Assembly: GCF_900112205.1 (NCBI RefSeq)
Contig: NZ_FOKW01000005.1
Span: forward strand, 186,001-250,000
Direction of reading: 5' to 3'
Length of the DNA stretch: 64,000 bases
DNA from: Natronobacterium haloterrestre
Lineage (GTDB): Archaea; Halobacteriota; Halobacteria; Halobacteriales; Natrialbaceae
Of the stretch, positions 816 through 32,293 are shown in pieces (within the stretch, counting starts at the first letter, position 1; each line of letters starts with the position of its first letter). The position numbers and the translations under genes were made by a program. The notes below the pieces were generated by a model that was not told where the DNA came from, searched no databases, and saw nothing but the letters and a program-made list of their open reading frames with translations.

Positions 816-2099
816 GTGACGACCTGGGACCAGCACAAGGGCGACGCGCACAATGCGGGCGTCCGTCGCGACCTCGAGGGACCGCTCCGGGTCGAGTCCG
901 CCTGGACCGCCGACCTCGCCGGGGCCGTCGGCTCGCCGGTTCTCGACCGCGAGGCCGTCTTCGTCGGCACCGAGCGCGGGAACTGGTACGCGCTCGAGCG
1001 CGAGAGCGGTCGTCGCCGGTGGGTCTTCGAGACGTCCGGCGGTCCGGCCGCGACGCCGGTCGTGGCGCGCAACCGGGTCTACGTCGCCACCGCGGACGGG
1101 ACCGTCCACGCGCTCGAGGCCGCGACCGGCGACGAAGCCTGGGCCGCGGCGCTGCCCGGCGCGGACTCGAGTTCGCTCACCGTCGCCGACGGGCGGCTGT
1201 ACGTCGGCCACACGGCGGGTGCGTCCGCGATCGCGCTCGCGCTCGAGAGCGGCGCCGGTAGCGTGCTCGAGGAGCCCGAAGACGGGACCGCCGAGCCGGG
1301 TGAGATCCGCTGGACTCACGAAACCGACGCGCCGGTCGTCGGCCGCCCGGCGGTAGGCGACGGGGACGACGGCCAAAACCGGTTCGGCGAGCCCGAAAAC
1401 GCGAACTCGCTCCCGGACCCGACCGCGGACCCGACCGCGGACCCGAGTTCGGGCACCGAACCCGACGTCGACCTCGAGACCGGGTTCGACACCGACTTCG
1501 ACCGCGGTTCGGCGGCGTCCCGCGTGTTCGTCGCCGACGAAGACGGGACCGTCCACGCGCTCGAGGCCGCGACCGGCGACGAAGAGTGGACCGCCCCGAC
1601 CGACGGGGTCGCGACCGGCGGGCCGACGGTCGCCGACGGGCTGGTCTACGTCGCCGGCGACGACGGCACGCTGCTCGCGCTGGACGCCGACTCCGGCCGG
1701 GCGTGGTTCTCCTACGACATCGATGCCGCCTTCACCGGTTCGGCGACGGTGCTGCCCGACGTGGATACGACGTTCGTCGGCGCGACCGACGGCTACCTCC
1801 ACGTCACCGACACGTCGTTCGGCCGGCGCAAACTGCGTGGCTGGCTCTTCTCGAAGAAGGGCGTCGAGTTGGACGGGCCAGTCCGCGGGAGCCCGGTCGT
1901 CGTCGGCGACGTCGTCTGTGTCGGCGACGAGACCGGCTCGCTGTACGGACTCGACACGGCCGACGACTGCACCCACCTCTGGCACTTCGACACCGGGACC
2001 GCCGTGACGGCGACCCCCGCGGTCGGCGACCGACAGCTGTTCGTCGGCACCGAGGACGGCCGCTTTCACTGCCTGACCTGGAGCGACGACGACCGGTGA
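816..2099 (+). CDS. PQQ-like (BamB-type) beta-propeller repeat protein
   Basis: The 427-residue acidic protein starts with GTG. It is built of repeated blades of the form VYVATxDGTVHALEAATGDExW, typical of PQQ-like/BamB propellers. Blades are visible around residues 25-150 and again from about 230 to the C-terminus. They are separated by a low-complexity linker (about 190-230) containing a DPTADPTADP repeat. No signal peptide is visible, so it may be cytoplasmic or use an unrecognised export route. It is flanked by pspAB and radA with no sign of an operon. The function is unknown; in other lineages such propellers bind quinone cofactors or scaffold other proteins. Confidence 0.85.
   Translation: MTTWDQHKGDAHNAGVRRDLEGPLRVESAWTADLAGAVGSPVLDREAVFVGTERGNWYALERESGRRRWVFETSGGPAATPVVARNRVYVATADGTVHALEAATGDEAWAAALPGADSSSLTVADGRLYVGHTAGASAIALALESGAGSVLEEPEDGTAEPGEIRWTHETDAPVVGRPAVGDGDDGQNRFGEPENANSLPDPTADPTADPSSGTEPDVDLETGFDTDFDRGSAASRVFVADEDGTVHALEAATGDEEWTAPTDGVATGGPTVADGLVYVAGDDGTLLALDADSGRAWFSYDIDAAFTGSATVLPDVDTTFVGATDGYLHVTDTSFGRRKLRGWLFSKKGVELDGPVRGSPVVVGDVVCVGDETGSLYGLDTADDCTHLWHFDTGTAVTATPAVGDRQLFVGTEDGRFHCLTWSDDDR
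1095..1584 (+). repeat. 43-bp perfect direct repeat inside the propeller gene
   Basis: Bases 1095-1137 and 1542-1584 are identical over 43 nt. Both encode DGTVHALEAATGDE in the same frame, one in the N-terminal and one in the C-terminal half of the protein. Identity at synonymous sites points to recent blade duplication or gene conversion. Confidence 0.9.
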
Positions 2100-2231
2100 C
2101 CGTAGTCAGCCCTGGACCCGAGCCCGGTCTCGACGACCGCCGATCCGCGCCTCTTCCTCCCTAAACCCGTTGACCGCCTCAGGACGATCAGCGCGCCCTC
2201 CGGCACTTTCACTTTCACTTCCCTGTTAACG

Positions 2232-2242
2232 AGGGTTTATGG
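2232..2242 (+). promoter_or_regulatory. TATA box of radA
   Basis: The sequence GGGTTTATGG lies 25-30 nt before the ATG at 2266. That is the spacing expected for a near-leaderless haloarchaeal transcript, and it supports the ATG at 2266 over the upstream in-frame ATG at 2239. Confidence 0.6.
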
Positions 2243-2265
2243 GGGGTCCGGCACAACGACGGAGT

Positions 2266-3297
2266 ATGCCCGAAGCAGATCTCGAGGAACTCCCCGGCGT
2301 CGGACCGGCAACAGCAGACAAACTCCAGGACGCAGGCTTCGACTCCTTCCAGAGTCTCGCCGTCGCCTCGCCCTCCGAACTGTCGAACACGGCCGACGTC
2401 GGCGAGTCCACCGCCGCGGACATCGTCAACGCCGCCCGCGACGCCGCCGACGTCGGCGGCTTCGAGACCGGTTCGACCGTACTCGAGCGGCGAAACAAGA
2501 TCGGCAAACTCTCCTGGCATATCGACGAGGTCGACGAACTCCTCGGCGGTGGGATCGAGACCCAGTCGATCACCGAAGTGTACGGCGAGTTCGGGTCCGG
2601 CAAGTCCCAGGTGACCCACCAGATGGCCGTCAACGTCCAGCTTCCCAAGGAGGTCGGCGGCCTCCACGGCAGCGCGATGTTCATCGACAGCGAGGACACG
2701 TTCCGTCCCGAGCGGATCGACGACATGGTTCGGGGTCTTCCGGACGACGTCATCGAGGCCACCCTCGAGGACCGCGACATCGAGGGGTCGGCCGACGACG
2801 AGGAAGCGCTCGACGAACTCGTCGACGCCATCCTCGAGAAGATCCACGTCGCGAAGGCGTTCAACTCCAACCACCAGATGCTGCTGGCCGAGAAGGCCCA
2901 GGAACTCGCGAGCGAACACGAGGACTCGGAGTACCCCATCCGCCTGCTCTGTGTCGACTCCCTGACGGCCCACTTCCGCGCCGAGTACGTCGGCCGTGGC
3001 GAACTCGCGGACCGCCAGCAGAAGCTCAACAAGCACCTCCACGACCTCGACAAGGTCGGCAACCTCTACAACGCGGCCGTGATCGTCACGAACCAGGTCG
3101 CCTCGAACCCCGACTCGTTCTTCGGCGACCCGACGCAGCCGATCGGGGGGAACATCCTCGGCCACAAGTCGACGTTCCGCATCTACCTGCGCAAGTCCAA
3201 GGGTGACAAGCGGATCGTCCGCCTGGTCGACGCACCGAACCTCGCCGACGGCGAGGCGGTCATGCGCGTCCAGGACGAGGGACTGAAGCCGGAGTAA
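2266..3297 (+). CDS. radA: DNA repair and recombination protein RadA
   Basis: The 343-residue archaeal recombinase (RecA/Rad51 family) forms filaments on single-stranded DNA and catalyses ATP-dependent strand exchange. An N-terminal helix-hairpin-helix domain (about 5-60, [12 protein letters not shown]) is followed by the ATPase core with Walker A GEFGSGKS at 107-114. The Walker B region (LLCVDS) and the DNA-binding loop region ([19 protein letters not shown], then [10 protein letters not shown]) follow. I start it at 2266 because [11 protein letters not shown] is the usual N-terminus and a TATA box sits 25-30 nt upstream. The length matches the family, with no intein. It appears to be transcribed alone. 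Confidence 0.98.
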
Positions 3298-27320: not shown

Positions 27321-27393
27321 TCCTGCGGTCTGCTGTGACGATTTCCCGGCCCGACCGCAGGCGTCGGACCCTCGCGGTCGGCCGCAACGACTC
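27321..27393. repeat. Decayed copy of the palindromic element
   Basis: The left arm (GCGGTCTGCTGTGACGATTT..., with CGACCGCAGG at the centre) matches the intact copy immediately to its right. The right arm is degenerate. Two copies in tandem suggest nested or repeated insertion. Confidence 0.55.
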
Positions 27394-27474
27394 ATACGGA
27401 TTGCTGTAACTGTTTACCGGTACAACCGCAGGACGGTCGCGGTTGCACCGGTAATGACTTACAGCAGTCCGTAT
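27394..27474. repeat. 81-bp palindromic element, best copy
   Basis: Two 36-nt arms form a near-perfect inverted repeat around a 9-nt loop. The left arm starts ATACGGATTGCTGTAA and the right arm ends TTACAGCAGTCCGTAT. Only about five mismatches separate the arms. The element lies in the gap between gshA and the zinc-ribbon regulator gene and could also form a strong RNA hairpin at both convergent transcript ends. A related copy is at 31573-31656. Confidence 0.85.
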
Positions 27475-27486
27475 CAATAGCCCGTC

Positions 27487-28452
27487 TCAGTACCGCTCCC
27501 GGTCGACGACCTCGAGCGTCTCGTCTACAGTACACTCGAGGGCCTCCCCGTCCAGTTCGACGGCGGTCGTGACCCGCCACGGGTCGGTCGCTTCGACCGT
27601 CGTTCGCCGATCCGTCGCGGCGAACTCCACCTCCCAGATCGGAGTGTCCATGAGGTCGAGACCCCGTCGCCGACAGAACGCGATCACCTCGCTCTCGCCG
27701 AGCAGGAACTCGCCGGTCGTGAGCGTGTCCTTGTTTCCACAGTGCGAGCAGCCGCGCCGAACGATCGTCGATCGGAGGTTGCCGCGCGGATATCCCGTCG
27801 TTTCCGGCTCCAGAAACTCCGCATCGACCCCGCCGCCACAGAGCGGACACGTTCCCTGCGCGAACGCGAACCGTTGCTGACGGTTGTACGCCGCGACCCG
27901 CTCGAGGAGCCGATCGTCCGGGCCGTTCAGGATCCCGGGGGGTGTGAGATTGTAATCGTACAGGTACTCGCAGTCGGCACACTGGATGGCGAAGATGGCG
28001 TTGCGGTACTGTGCCCGGATCGACCCGCCACAGTGATGACAGGACTGCTCGAGATCGAACGGCTCGACGGTCGCCTCCCCGGCGACGGACCAGGCCCGGA
28101 TCGTCCGGACCATCGTCGTCCCCTCCGGCCGGAGGCGAAACCCCTCCTCGTCGGTGGCCGCCATCTCGGATACCGGTTGCGCGTCGTCGGCCCCTGCCTC
28201 GGCACGGGGATCGACCCGCTCGACGAAGGTGCCCACGAGTTGCTGGAGGTGGTAGTTGAAGCGACTGCTCTCGACGGAGCCGTCGGTCCGTTCGCGGAGT
28301 TCCGAGAACGGCAGGACCGGCGGCGGTCCGCGTCCACCGCGGGCTTCGCTCAGTGTGTGAAGGATCTTCGCTCTGACCTCGTTTCCGAGCAGTGCGAGCG
28401 CCTCGTCGGGCGGCAGCGATCCGTACGTTCGCTCCGCCGAGCGTTCGGTCAT
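27487..28452 (-). CDS. ArsR-like winged-helix regulator with zinc-ribbon C-terminal domain
   Basis: The 321-residue protein has an N-terminal winged helix (EALALLGNEVRAKILHTLSEA..., then SSRFNYHLQQLVGTFVE, residues about 10-130). Paired Cys motifs follow (CHHCGGS...CADCEY; CPLCGG...CSHCGN), indicating two zinc ribbons. A central LLERVAAYNRQQRFAFAQGTCPLC segment is typical of a large haloarchaeal family (DUF7347/7351-like, from memory). I use the ATG at 28452; a TTG at 28500 would add 16 residues. Target genes unknown. Confidence 0.82.
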   Translation of the reverse strand: MTERSAERTYGSLPPDEALALLGNEVRAKILHTLSEARGGRGPPPVLPFSELRERTDGSVESSRFNYHLQQLVGTFVERVDPRAEAGADDAQPVSEMAATDEEGFRLRPEGTTMVRTIRAWSVAGEATVEPFDLEQSCHHCGGSIRAQYRNAIFAIQCADCEYLYDYNLTPPGILNGPDDRLLERVAAYNRQQRFAFAQGTCPLCGGGVDAEFLEPETTGYPRGNLRSTIVRRGCSHCGNKDTLTTGEFLLGESEVIAFCRRRGLDLMDTPIWEVEFAATDRRTTVEATDPWRVTTAVELDGEALECTVDETLEVVDRERY

Positions 28453-28556
28453 GCGTTCGGATAGCACGGGCGTCGTTGAATCCGTTCGGGTAGGTTCCAA
28501 CTGGGGGGCAGGACGTGCGATCCCCTCGTGAGAGGATCCGGACCGTCGGACGTCGA

Positions 28557-29138
28557 CTACGGTGTCGACTGGGCCTCGACCGGCTTCTCGGTGACCTCCG
28601 GGTAGGACGTTACTCCCGCGTAGTCGACGAGTTCACGGCCGAGTCGGCGGGTACGCTCCCGGAGGTCGTCGTCGATCAGTTCGCCGTCGGCGAACCGCTC
28701 GTGGGAGTCGGGAATCCCGACCTGGTGGGGGAGCGTCCACGCGCCGAGCGCCCGGGCGACCGACCGGAGATGCTCGAGCGCCGGCGTCGGGAACGAGCCG
28801 CCGGCGACGGCCGCGAGTCCGACGGTCGTTTCCTCGAACTCGTCCGCGCCGCAGTAATCGAGCGCCGTCTTGAGCGGCGAGCTAAACGTTCCGTGGTACA
28901 TCGGCGTGCCGAGGACGACCCCGTCCGCACGGTCGACGTGCCGCCTGAGTTCCGGGGCATCACCCGCGTCGGGGCGGTGCGGTTCGAACGTCGGCAGGTC
29001 GTACTCCCGCAGGTCGACGAGCGTCGTCTCCGCACCTGCGCGTTCGGCGGCCGCGAGCGCTTCGCGAACGATAACTCGAGTACCGCTGTCGGGTGCCAGA
29101 CTGCCGCAGAGACCGACGATATATACGTCGTCTTTCAT
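28557..29138 (-). CDS. NAD(P)H-dependent FMN reductase (flavodoxin-like fold)
   Basis: The 193-residue protein shows the FMN_red pattern: IVGLCGSLAPDSGTRVIVREAL at the N-terminus, ADGVVLGTPMYHGTFSSPLKTALDYCG for FMN binding, then TVGLAAVAGGSFPTPALEHLRSV. It would reduce FMN or quinone-like acceptors in the cytoplasm. The ATG at 29138 begins exactly at the family N-terminus (MKDDVYIVGLC). The upstream 240 nt are A/T-rich and shared with a divergent MFS gene. Confidence 0.9.
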   Translation of the reverse strand: MKDDVYIVGLCGSLAPDSGTRVIVREALAAAERAGAETTLVDLREYDLPTFEPHRPDAGDAPELRRHVDRADGVVLGTPMYHGTFSSPLKTALDYCGADEFEETTVGLAAVAGGSFPTPALEHLRSVARALGAWTLPHQVGIPDSHERFADGELIDDDLRERTRRLGRELVDYAGVTSYPEVTEKPVEAQSTP

Positions 29139-29413
29139 TTTCGTGCGTCGTACAGTACTGCTGGCAGCCACTTAGGTTCTTTCTGAACCCAGTTATTGTA
29201 TAAGATATTATAATTAGACAGAAACGGCGGATGTGGGAGGATGGGGTTCCGATTTCCCCGCCATCACTACGGTTTCGACGCGAAAGAGACGACCATCGAG
29301 TCTCCGAATTCGCCGAAATGATAGATAACATACAAAGTATCACTTGTGAAAGTCGCGATACAAAAATCAGCTTTCGAAAAATACCATCAAAGTGGTAACT
29401 GTAGTCGGGTGCG

Positions 29414-30697
29414 ATGGCCGTCCCTCGGAACGTCCGCTGGACGTACTACCTCTATCGGGCGACCACGTCGTCCGGGTTCGTCGTCCCGATCAGCGTCCTC
29501 TACCTCCTCGATCGCGGATACGGCCTCGAGTTCGTCGCGCTCGCACAGGCGACGTTCTCCATCACGCTCGTCGCCACGCAGGTTCCGTCGGGCTACCTCG
29601 CCGACCGGATCGGTCGTCGCTCGACTCTCGTACTGGGAACGGTTCTGCGCACCGTCGGGCTGGCAGGCTACCTGCTCGTCGATTTCGCCGCCGGCTACCT
29701 CGCGTTGAAGGTGTTCGTCGGCTCAGCGTGGGCGTTTCGCTCCGGGACGGCCGACGCCTGGCTCTACGAACTGCTGGCGGTCTACGGCGAACCGGACGAG
29801 TTCGCCCGCCTCGAGGGACGGGGCAGCACGCTGCTTTTCACGACGTCGGCAGCGGGCGCGGTGATCGGCGGCGTCCTGTACGGGGCGGGCCCGGAACTCC
29901 CGTTTCTCGTCAACGCCGCGCTGGCCGCGCTCGGGCTTCCGCTGCTCGTGGCGTTGCCGACTACCGGAGAGGGGGCCGGTTCGGCGACGGATCGCCCCGA
30001 CCCTGCCCCTGACCCGGGCTGCGACCACGATCCCGACCACGAACCCAACCGACACCGACTCCGGGACGGACTCCGGTCGCTCCGGCGGGAGTTCGCCCGT
30101 CCCGCAGTGGGATGGGTCGTCGTCTACACCGGGTTGCTCTTCCTGCTCTTCGACCTCTCGCGTACGTTCGAACAGCCCGCGCTCGAGGCTGTCGGCCTCC
30201 CAGTCGCCGGGCTGGGCGTGCTGTACGCCGGGTTCAAACTCGTGTCGGCGGGCGCCGCCTCGACCGTCGGCTGGCTCCAGGATCGACTCGGCACGCGACG
30301 AACGCTGGCGCTGGCCGCGCCGGTACTGGGAGCAGCCTACGTCGCCCCCCTGTTCGTTCCGGCCGCGATCGTTCCGGCGCTGTTCCTCTACCGGAGTTCG
30401 CGAGCCGTGCTCCGACCGATCCGAAACCAGTATCTCAACGACCGACTGGGCGATACGGACCGCGCGACGGTCCTTTCCGGCGTGTCCATGGTGTCGTCCC
30501 TCGCGGCGGCGGCCGCAAGGGTCGTCGGGGGCGAACTCGCCGCGATCGCAGGCCCGATCCGATTTCTCGCGTTCGCCGGCGTTACCCTCGCGCTCGCGGC
30601 GGGCACCCTCTGGCTGGCCGTCTCGCCGGCACGAGGTGCAGGCGACTCGAGCGACCGAGAGTCCGAGCGAAGGATCGCCGCCGACGGTGGGGACTGA
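29414..30697 (+). CDS. MFS transporter
   Basis: The 427-residue protein has about 12 membrane helices. The conserved helix 2-3 loop (PSGYLADRIGRRSTLVLG) and its second-half counterpart (GWLQDRLGTRRTLAL) are visible. The central cytoplasmic loop (about 185-220) is enriched in Asp, Pro and His (CDHDPDHEPNRH). Substrate unknown; drug-efflux-like by general appearance. A CGAAAAATACC sequence about 30 nt upstream looks like BRE plus TATA. Confidence 0.88.
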   Translation: MAVPRNVRWTYYLYRATTSSGFVVPISVLYLLDRGYGLEFVALAQATFSITLVATQVPSGYLADRIGRRSTLVLGTVLRTVGLAGYLLVDFAAGYLALKVFVGSAWAFRSGTADAWLYELLAVYGEPDEFARLEGRGSTLLFTTSAAGAVIGGVLYGAGPELPFLVNAALAALGLPLLVALPTTGEGAGSATDRPDPAPDPGCDHDPDHEPNRHRLRDGLRSLRREFARPAVGWVVVYTGLLFLLFDLSRTFEQPALEAVGLPVAGLGVLYAGFKLVSAGAASTVGWLQDRLGTRRTLALAAPVLGAAYVAPLFVPAAIVPALFLYRSSRAVLRPIRNQYLNDRLGDTDRATVLSGVSMVSSLAAAAARVVGGELAAIAGPIRFLAFAGVTLALAAGTLWLAVSPARGAGDSSDRESERRIAADGGD

Positions 30698-30766
30698 CGC
30701 CGACCGTCGATGATAACGGCAATCGCGGCATAACTGACAAGGACCGGACGTCGGTAACAGGGACCA

Positions 30767-31216
30767 GTGCGAGCACGACGCGACCTGTTGACGACGTTCC
30801 TCGTCGGCATCGCCGGCTGTCTCGAGCCGCCAGTGACCGGCACGCCACCCACACACCCGCAGGGGAGTTTCGAGTTCGACTTCCGAACGGTCGACGGAGC
30901 CGAACTGGTCCGAATCACGGCGACGAACCTGAGCGGCGAGCCGTCGAATCTGCGGGTTCGGATCGGCGATACGGTCGCCTACGTCGACGGACGATACGGC
31001 GAACGGTACGTCGCCAGTCGCGAGTACGTCGACGAGTGGGACGACGGAATCGACTCCGGCGACGCTCTCGAGTTGACGACCGGAGACGCGCTCCCCGAGA
31101 ACGGACGGCTCGTGATCGAAGTCGAACACGACGAGAACGACGAGTTCGTCACCATCGGGGAGACACGGATATCAGAGAGCGCTTTTACCACGGCACATCG
31201 CAAAACGGAGTTCTGA
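30767..31216 (+). CDS. Putative lipoprotein, unknown function
   Basis: The 149-residue protein starts with GTG and has a short signal with a basic start (RARRDL), a hydrophobic run and a lipobox IAGC (Cys at about 18). A beta-rich domain follows, resembling haloarchaeal secreted beta-sandwich proteins (LVRITATNLSGEPSNLRVRIGDTVAY). No catalytic motif is visible. It lies 70 nt behind the MFS gene and next to the tRNA-Arg region. Confidence 0.65.
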   Translation: MRARRDLLTTFLVGIAGCLEPPVTGTPPTHPQGSFEFDFRTVDGAELVRITATNLSGEPSNLRVRIGDTVAYVDGRYGERYVASREYVDEWDDGIDSGDALELTTGDALPENGRLVIEVEHDENDEFVTIGETRISESAFTTAHRKTEF

Positions 31217-31246
31217 ACGTCCCTGTCTCCCGTGTTCGACGGGCTC

Positions 31247-31272
31247 ACGGGCACGATGGGATTTGAACCACG
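31247..31272. repeat. tRNA-Arg 3'-end copy A (26 bp)
   Basis: ACGGGCACGATGGGATTTGAACCACG equals the reverse complement of the tRNA-Arg T-arm and acceptor 3' end, apart from one missing C. It is identical to copy B at 31356-31381. Just to its right (about 31300-31315) GGTTCGAACCCATC forms an inverted partner. Confidence 0.85.
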
Positions 31273-31355
31273 CCGTCGGCTCGCTTCGCTCGCCGCCGTC
31301 TGGTTCGAACCCATCTCAGTATCTCGCCGTCGCTCACGAGTTGTTCGCGATAACA

Positions 31356-31381
31356 ACGGGCACGATGGGATTTGAACCACG
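31356..31381. repeat. tRNA-Arg 3'-end copy B (26 bp)
   Basis: It is identical to copy A and also flanked by an inverted partial copy (ATTCAAATCCCCGTGCC, about 31405-31421). The bases before copies B and C also match (TTGTTCGC...ATAAC), so a unit of roughly 90-110 bp is repeated. Confidence 0.85.
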
Positions 31382-31446
31382 GTCGCAGCAAGCTGTTCCC
31401 TGATTCAAATCCCCGTGCCGTTACTGCTCACGTTGTTCGCAGATAA

Positions 31447-31521
31447 CGGGCACGATGGGATTTGAACCCACGACCGTCGGATTAGAAGTCCGACGCTCTA
31501 TCCGGACTGAGCTACGTGCCC
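31447..31521 (-). tRNA. tRNA-Arg (anticodon UCU)
   Basis: The minus strand folds into a complete cloverleaf. Acceptor GGGCACG/CGTGCCC, D-stem GCTC/GAGC, anticodon stem TCGGA/TCCGA with loop CTTCTAA (anticodon TCT), T-stem GTGGG/CCCAT around TTCAAAT, and discriminator G. There is no intron and CCA is not encoded. Partial copies of its 3' end lie directly beyond the 3' side (31247-31381). Confidence 0.96.
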
Positions 31522-31572
31522 TCGTGTAGGAATGGACGACGGAATAGTATAAGCGGTGTGGATTGCACCTTC

Positions 31573-31656
31573 TCGGACGGTCTGCTGTAACGGGTTTCCG
31601 GTCCGACTGCAGGCGTTTGCGGTCGAACCGACAATGCGTTGCAGGAGTCCGTATCA
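31573..31656. repeat. Diverged palindromic element, copy 3
   Basis: The arms TCGGACGGTCTGCTGTAACG... and ...GCGTTGCAGGAGTCCGTATCA are related to those at 27394-27474, with more mismatches. The terminal GTATCA provides the stop codon of the YccF-like gene on the minus strand (TGA at 31654-31656), so the element abuts or truncated that gene. Confidence 0.7.
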
Positions 31657-32058
31657 GCCGTGGAACCGGTACAGCGACGTGACGTACGGAAGCCGGTTCG
31701 CCAGCCAGATTGCGACCGGCAACCCGATGATCGTCATCGCGAGCAGCGCCGCGAGGTTCGCCCAGAGGAAACTGAGCCACCAGCCGACGAACACGAAGTA
31801 GAGTGCACGCACCGGAAGCGAGTGCTGGGTATTTCCATCGCTGGCCTCGAGGCGCGCGTACGATTCCCCTGGCCCCTGTCGCGAACGGGGTTCCTGGAGC
31901 GTGAGCACCGTCGGCACGAGGTTGATCAGTTTGATCCCGATCGGCGCGAGGATCACCGTCACGTTCAGCGCCCACGCGATGTTGACGACGATCGGCGTTA
32001 GCCACCAGCCGACGAAGACGAACCAGATCGCACGAACGAGAACCGACCGCTGTGTCAT
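31654..32058 (-). CDS. YccF-domain membrane protein (two tandem repeats)
   Basis: The 134-residue protein contains two copies of the YccF/DUF307 motif. These are RAIWFVFVGWWLTPIVVNIAWALNVTVILAPIGIKLINLVP and RALYFVFVGWWLSFLWANLAALLAMTIIGLPVAIWLANRLP, here separated by a short soluble linker. Each repeat spans about two hydrophobic segments. I start at the ATG 32058. Its function is unknown. Its stop codon lies within the palindromic element. Confidence 0.82.
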   Translation of the reverse strand: MTQRSVLVRAIWFVFVGWWLTPIVVNIAWALNVTVILAPIGIKLINLVPTVLTLQEPRSRQGPGESYARLEASDGNTQHSLPVRALYFVFVGWWLSFLWANLAALLAMTIIGLPVAIWLANRLPYVTSLYRFHG

Positions 32059-32152
32059 ACTAGATCTGGGGAGCGTCGGGGAATAGGCGTGTCGGTACGA
32101 GCGGGAGCGATTCGGCCTCGATCGAGGGGATCGATCTCGAGTCGTGAACCGA

Positions 32153-32293
32153 TTAGAGCCCGAGGAAGCGCAGGAACAGTCCCACGAGCAGAATGCCGGC
32201 ACCGATGAAGGCCCCGACGAGCGGCGGCAGGATCGGAATCGGAATCACGATCAGGAGGAGGCCGACCACGATCAGTGGCGTGGAGAGGCGCAT
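32153..32293 (-). CDS. Small hydrophobic membrane protein, 46 residues
   Basis: ATG at 32293 opens a 46-residue frame ending in TAA. Almost the whole sequence is hydrophobic (MRLSTPLIVVGLLLIVIPIP, then LVGAFIGAGILLVGLFLRFLGL), giving two probable membrane helices separated by a Pro-rich turn. It lies 94 nt upstream of the YccF gene in the same orientation and may be co-transcribed with it. No family name is known to me. Confidence 0.6.
   Translation of the reverse strand: MRLSTPLIVVGLLLIVIPIPILPPLVGAFIGAGILLVGLFLRFLGL

Follow-up and report, generated by a model that had tools for sequence, protein, structure and literature searches.

We find that an approximately 80-bp palindrome with TACGG...CCGTA ends, matched at two places in a 64,000-nucleotide stretch of Natronobacterium haloterrestre DNA (the whole stretch that was analyzed, hereafter the window), belongs to a mobile family. 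Its mobility is supported by further copies in the genome, empty sites in a close relative, and a 3-bp target duplication. We think it probable that the palindrome is an IS630-type MITE which is moved in trans, integrates at a TSA-centered target with a 3-bp duplication, and accumulates at TGA stop codons. The relevant features of the window are as follows.

27324..27394, no strand: left part of a putative older, decayed copy (flank TCC at 27321-27323), from joined-piece alignment
27392..27394, no strand: left copy of the target duplication, TCA, 3 bp, from flank comparison
27395..27473, no strand: intact palindromic element, 79 bp, TACGG...CCGTA, from its fold, a model match of 108.6 bits, and its boundaries
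27474..27476, no strand: right copy of the target duplication, TCA, 3 bp, from flank comparison
27477..27486, no strand: right remnant of the putative older copy, from alignment and the ORF list
27487..28500, minus strand: DUF7351/DUF7347-domain gene with its stop codon directly beside the older copy, from domain search
31576..31653, no strand: diverged palindromic element, 78 bp, with flanks TCG (31573-31575) and TCA (31654-31656), from its fold and a model match
31654..32202, minus strand: YccF-domain gene (PF03733, E 1.2e-9)

A sequence-only reading of the window had described a family of roughly 80-bp palindromic repeats, and its best copy is borne out: the segment 27394-27474 forms a hairpin of 31 pairs, with 5 positions of the arms unpaired and a loop of 9 nt, and its fold (-49 kcal/mol, z -8.9) was matched by 0 of 200 shuffles. 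The diverged copy reported at 31573-31656 holds up as well (-45.9, z -5.9, 0/200 shuffles as good), with the element proper at 31576-31653. A covariance model built from 35 copies matched exactly these two places in the window, each on both strands, and gave 140 matches at E <= 0.01 in the whole genome, many of them being both strands of one palindrome. The decayed neighbor proposed in the same reading is best taken as an older copy that the intact one has split. Joined, 27324-27394 and 27477-27486 align end to end with a family member as a split older copy, but the fold of 27321-27393 alone is not significant (z -1.4, 24/200 shuffles as good) and the joined hairpin is weak (z -1.66, 12/300 shuffles as good). 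Most likely, the intact element inserted into the right arm of this older copy; because the joined hairpin is weak, we infer this nested arrangement from the alignment. The minus-strand gene at 27487-28500 has its stop codon in the right-hand TCA of the older copy (27487-27489), and the YccF gene has its TGA stop in the TCA that borders the diverged element on the right (31654-31656). The diverged copy had been said to supply this YccF stop; it does end on the stop codon, but in the three cases elsewhere that have an exact empty site the TGA is the gene's own stop, duplicated on insertion. Both window copies are common to the nearest relative, G001, and therefore no recent move is visible in the window itself.

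Aligned copies of the family span TACGG to CCGTA, with outer triplets that are mostly TCA/TCA or TGA/TGA. The elements are short (78 to 80 bp) and noncoding and carry terminal inverted repeats, as MITEs do, with TA at both termini as in IS630-linked MITEs of the RUP kind. Exact-end copies number 985 in 39 of the 61 genomes of the host's family, the other 22 having no exact-end copy, while a reversed control pattern matched each genome 0 or 1 times. Of these 985 copies, 910 are bordered by the same triplet, TCA or TGA, on both sides. In a set of fetched loci, flanking triplets were equal in 172 of 196 copies and unequal in 24, and a 400-kb sample of Halomicrobium katesii, chosen for transposase presence and independently of flanks, holds 19 candidate copies, 14 of them with equal TSA flanks.

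To follow individual insertions, we took eight recent copies, joined the two flanks of each, and compared the result with four relatives within the genus (G001 to G004). Four of the eight sites (L003, L006, L007, and L008) are empty in G001, which is very probably Halobiforma lacisalsi AJ5, as judged by sequence identity, because one stretch equals NZ_CP019286.1 at the same coordinates. Three of these (L003, L006, and L007) are exact empty sites that hold a single TGA or TCA in G001, the TGA being the gene's own stop codon, duplicated on insertion; the L008 site is empty with differences nearby. Three further sites (L001, L002, and L004) are occupied in G001, and at L005 this genome has a different palindrome, from a second family, at the same stop codon. 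Alignments with G002 to G004 were too diverged for reading empty sites. Copies also enter genes: one (L420) interrupts an IS4-type transposase gene in H. katesii, and another (L114) apparently lies inside a threonine-dehydratase-like gene, as read from the ORF list. The sequence-only reading had said that the palindrome looks nonautonomous and mobile, and had named a lack of further genomic copies or a fixed position in all relatives as refutations; neither was seen. Many copies were found, half of the recent sites are empty in the relative, and the proposed check for target-site duplications and empty sites returned a TCA/TGA duplication and three exact empty sites.

If TCA were a fixed part of the palindrome's ends, it could pass for a duplication. 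A search for TSA-flanked inverted repeats brought up the second palindrome family, which has TACTGTCGGACAG ends and lengths of 78 or 107 to 108 bp. Its matched flanks are TCA, TGA, TTA, or TAA in most copies, with TNA duplications at L375 (1399-1505), L387, L397, L398, L379, and L129 and exceptions that include L380, L386, L402, and L372; 5 of 18 copies of this TACTG family are at a stop codon. The target of the TACGG family is a palindrome centered on TSA (CGAC-TSA-GTCG), both at stop codons and at nonstop sites, and copies are oriented at random with respect to the target strand (counts of 30, 28, 26, and 25, another 24 being undecided). We favor double-strand integration with a 3-bp TNA duplication because of the matched TNA flanks in the second family, the palindromic target, and the random orientation.

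This target coincides with an Asp-stop gene end (GAC TGA), and the family is enriched at stop codons. Matched TSA flanks occur in 135 of 153 distinct TACGG copies; 61 of these 135 are exactly at a stop codon, counted as stops of acidic ORFs of at least 100 codons, versus 441 (3.2%) of the 13,911 remaining TSA sites of these loci. Greedy gene calls placed 49 elements at stops, 54 in noncoding and 32 in coding sequence, compared with 257, 3,702, and 9,373 of the other TSA sites (Fisher P of 4e-29 for stop versus noncoding); these calls come from a home-made program that makes some errors (L008 sits at a stop but was entered as coding). Among stop and noncoding sites together, stops make up 47.6%, versus 19.5% predicted by a target motif learned from nonstop copies. 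The excess beyond the target motif may reflect selection or an unseen preference.

We propose that a DDE transposase mobilizes the palindrome in trans. This enzyme, most likely a member of a two-ORF IS630 subgroup of haloarchaea, would recognize the TACGG... ends and insert the approximately 80-bp palindrome at the CGAC-TSA-GTCG target, duplicating 3 bp. Acidic haloarchaeal proteins commonly end in "...GAC TGA," which this target fits, and many insertions elsewhere would probably be harmful and selected against; for both reasons copies would build up exactly at TGA stops, where the duplication would keep the gene's stop intact.

The candidate mobilizer comes from H. katesii, a palindrome-rich genome (204 pattern matches versus 16 for the control) that also holds IS630-family elements with similar ends and TCA duplications. 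One such element is 2.5 kb long, has TACGGTCATGCG and TACGGTCGTGCG at its ends, and is flanked by TCA left and right; its IS630-type transposase gene contains an ISH3 insertion. The 400-kb sample holds seven IS630-type transposase genes; both ends were found for four, three of them flanked TCA..TCA and one TGA..TCA. A tblastn search with the N-terminal half of the transposase hit 90 plasmid records, 15 at >=60% identity. Both ends were located in nine of 19 plasmid IS630 regions (L473 to L478, L485, L487, and L488); these copies are about 1.12 to 1.14 kb long with TA termini and transposase genes, and five have equal TSA flanks, three have unequal TSA flanks, and one has neither. Two ORFs of the subgroup carry HTH and DDE_3 domains. 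Over H. katesii and plasmid copies with both ends, 4 of 13 have unequal TSA flanks and 1 of 13 has neither. Copies whose two flanks are TGA and TCA (L473, L475, L487, and L464) perhaps arose by recombination between inverted copies.

We then scored the IS630 ends on a profile of the palindrome arms. Both ends of one copy (L456) outscore all 2,799 background 26-mers, and for the 12 other distinct ends the rank against background ranges from 0 to 7.3%. A strict TTTRCY at positions 19 to 24 is present in 13 of 14 IS ends and in none of the background, yet in 17 of 82 palindrome arms. Among IS630 ends, TACGG was found only in H. katesii, other copies having a left end of TACAG; in place of TACGG, the plasmid copies show TAGTG, TAGGG, or TAGAG. 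The palindrome resembles the two-ORF subgroup in its TA termini, its similar subterminal sequence, and its TSA flanks (on both sides in 8 of 9 plasmid copies), and differs from it in that those elements are more than 1 kb long, encode transposases, and mostly end in TAGTG. In the H. katesii sample and the plasmids, which the search covered, these sequence comparisons suggest an IS630 link that is good in H. katesii and moderate elsewhere. At L141 (2342-2455), an inverted-repeat element of 108 bp is flanked by TGA and has TAGTG ends like those of the plasmid copies, of which it is possibly a MITE.

The same data could be read as a MITE moved by another double-strand (DDE) transposase, its likeness to IS630 ends being convergence or coincidence. 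The only moderate likeness of IS630 ends outside H. katesii (the 12 other distinct ends above) would fit this, as would the 3-bp duplication, which is unlike RUP, an IS630-linked repeat reported to target TA; some IS5-family groups make 3-bp TNA duplications. We nevertheless consider another DDE enzyme unlikely, since in the palindrome-rich genome the IS630 copies match the palindrome in TSA flanks and TA termini and are similar to it in subterminal sequence, and a PF01609 (IS4/IS5-type) scan of five genomes, with 30 loci fetched, returned no element with such ends. The accompanying end search, over 120 loci, gave only one IS at L435 and an unrelated IS, and DDE_Tnp_1 was rejected as mobilizer on this sample. 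The L435 element (1042-3153) has GAGGGTGTCATAG ends and is itself inserted into a TACGG palindrome in H. katesii. Five long-range end pairs lie around genes; no transposase was recognized among the ORFs between them, and the pairs are read as separate short copies. An all-against-all BLASTP of 308 loci for genes recurring beside copies gave, as its 40 largest clusters, orthologous neighborhoods and purposely fetched transposases.

The structure of the hairpin bears on a second alternative. Across 41 diverse copies and 31 pairs, 86% of cells are paired and 182 are double-changed, versus 67 +/- 8 in shuffles. Both stems covary, the upper one with changes on both sides in 13 of 16 pairs, and a short internal mismatch lies about 16 to 20 nt from the palindrome ends. 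Such a covarying interior appears to exceed the needs of a plain MITE, and either palindrome correction or selection on the hairpin could cause it. The hairpin might be kept for a host role behind stop codons, ending transcripts or protecting mRNA 3' ends, possibly on top of a MITE origin; the covariation of the upper stem, the stop excess over the motif prediction, and the flanking genes (convergent in 30, same direction in 41, divergent in 10, incomplete in 22) are on its side. Against it, four of eight recent copies are missing from a close relative, copies also disrupt genes, 22 of 61 genomes of the host's family have no exact-end copy, and archaeal termination relies on T-runs, not hairpins. 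We regard this reading as very improbable.

About equally improbable is a REP- or PATE-like palindrome moved single-stranded by an IS200/IS605-type (Y1, HUH) transposase, the paired TCA being a target motif and a right-end cleavage site instead of a duplication: the long covarying hairpin, the almost fixed TCA/TGA flanks, the common carriage of PATEs and IS605 elements by haloarchaea (PMC3119063), and a weak trend in Y1 genes (9/10 palindrome-rich genomes versus 8/13 without exact-end copies) would suit it, but one genome with 109 exact-end copies (G063) has no Y1 match, G002 holds only broken Y1 pieces, open Y1 genes occur in several genomes that lack exact-end copies, the target is palindromic, the sister family has matched TTA and TAA flanks, and orientation is random, though a palindrome could use either strand. 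The Y1 profile matched 17 of 23 genomes in all, and IS200/605 or RAYT as mobilizer is disfavored.

An IS630-type MITE, the reading we prefer, would work like RUP, the repeat unit of pneumococcus. RUP is a noncoding, hairpin-forming repeat of about 100 bp with TA termini and some 110 copies per genome; it ends like an IS630-family element, also occurs within transposase genes, has IS630-Spn1 as its proposed mobilizer, and targets TA (PMC2229807, PMC3049150). The haloarchaeal family instead makes a TSA duplication, forms a palindrome from end to end, and favors stop codons, and its empty sites show one TCA or TGA with no TA at the junction, which is not a TA target of the RUP kind. The small mobile repeats of Haloquadratum walsbyi (SMR-A of about 110 bp and SMR-B, e.g., the 80-bp HqIRS41) are likewise haloarchaeal, come in two size classes (here 78 to 80 and 107 to 108 bp), have prominent inverted ends, and lack a transposase gene, their cognate being not known at description (PMC3119063). 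Compared by description only, they differ in being reported without target duplication, whereas the TACGG family has a 3-bp duplication and a stop preference; SMR-A is reported to target PATEs and IS605 elements, whereas the TACGG family favors stop codons (PMC3119063).

PATEs and other IS605-type haloarchaeal elements are also nonautonomous palindromes in many copies (PMC3119063), but they are described as lacking target duplication, having palindromes near their ends, and being related to IS605, whereas here one palindrome spans the whole length. The absence of duplication shared by IS200/IS605, REP/RAYT, and PATE elements does not hold here, given the 3-bp repeats and the TTA and TAA variants of the sister family. 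REPs (GTAG- and CGTC-tagged) are abundant palindromes able to form RNA hairpins, but they are 20 to 40 bp long with an unpaired 4-nt tag, the GTAG type being linked to RAYTs (PMC3733652); the present palindrome is 79 bp and paired to its ends. A review of prokaryotic MITEs names haloarchaeal ones, and nothing of the TACGG-palindrome kind was noticed in the excerpt (PMC10969869). Among the open-licence papers listed, we recognized no description of a stop-codon-seeking or TSA-duplicating haloarchaeal palindrome; an earlier one elsewhere is possible. A palindrome of about 87 bp was reportedly described in Myxococcus xanthus in 1991.

Across the class, a TCA..TCA pattern is present in 91 of 292 Halobacteria genomes (family codes f1, f4, f5, f7, and f14) and in 20 plasmid records that are haloarchaeal by name throughout. 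INPHARED phages gave no match to the palindrome pattern, and of 90 stretches of viral contigs that fit it, the six with a fold below the cut-off did not resemble the family. A bacterial MAG, G078 (Proteobacteria F1-80-MAGs165; L443 to L452, L145, and L180), carries 30 copies with TACGG ends, TSA flanks, and a stem sequence of their own. Flanks are equal in 28 of these 30, and length is mostly as in the haloarchaeal family. The copies show only by a family-specific pattern, a generic TACGG...CCGTA search of G078 falling below its control (51 versus 78), and none of four other genomes of its bacterial family has copies.

A bolder extension, which we hold only tentatively and think doubtful, is that the family is a stop-codon-seeking IS630 offshoot with a 3-bp TSA duplication and a target motif that matches how haloarchaeal genes usually end, whose undamaging hairpin behind stops is kept by selection, in a design (TACGG ends, 79 bp, TSA flanks) working in at least one bacterium. 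The IS630-type MITE reading offers a candidate mobilizer for the tiny SMR-like palindromes of haloarchaea, the mobilization of which was called enigmatic in 2011, and a target choice that would spare genes by hitting their stop codons. Pairs of occupied and empty genes in close relatives provide material on which the effect of the hairpin on archaeal mRNA 3' ends could be tested.

An Rfam scan gave the tRNA alone above the cut-off. Near the diverged element, tRNA-Arg (31447-31521) is adjoined by two 26-nt copies of its 3'-end region (ACGGGCACGATGGGATTTGAACCACG) at 31247-31272 and 31356-31381, which look like remnants of past integrations at the tRNA.
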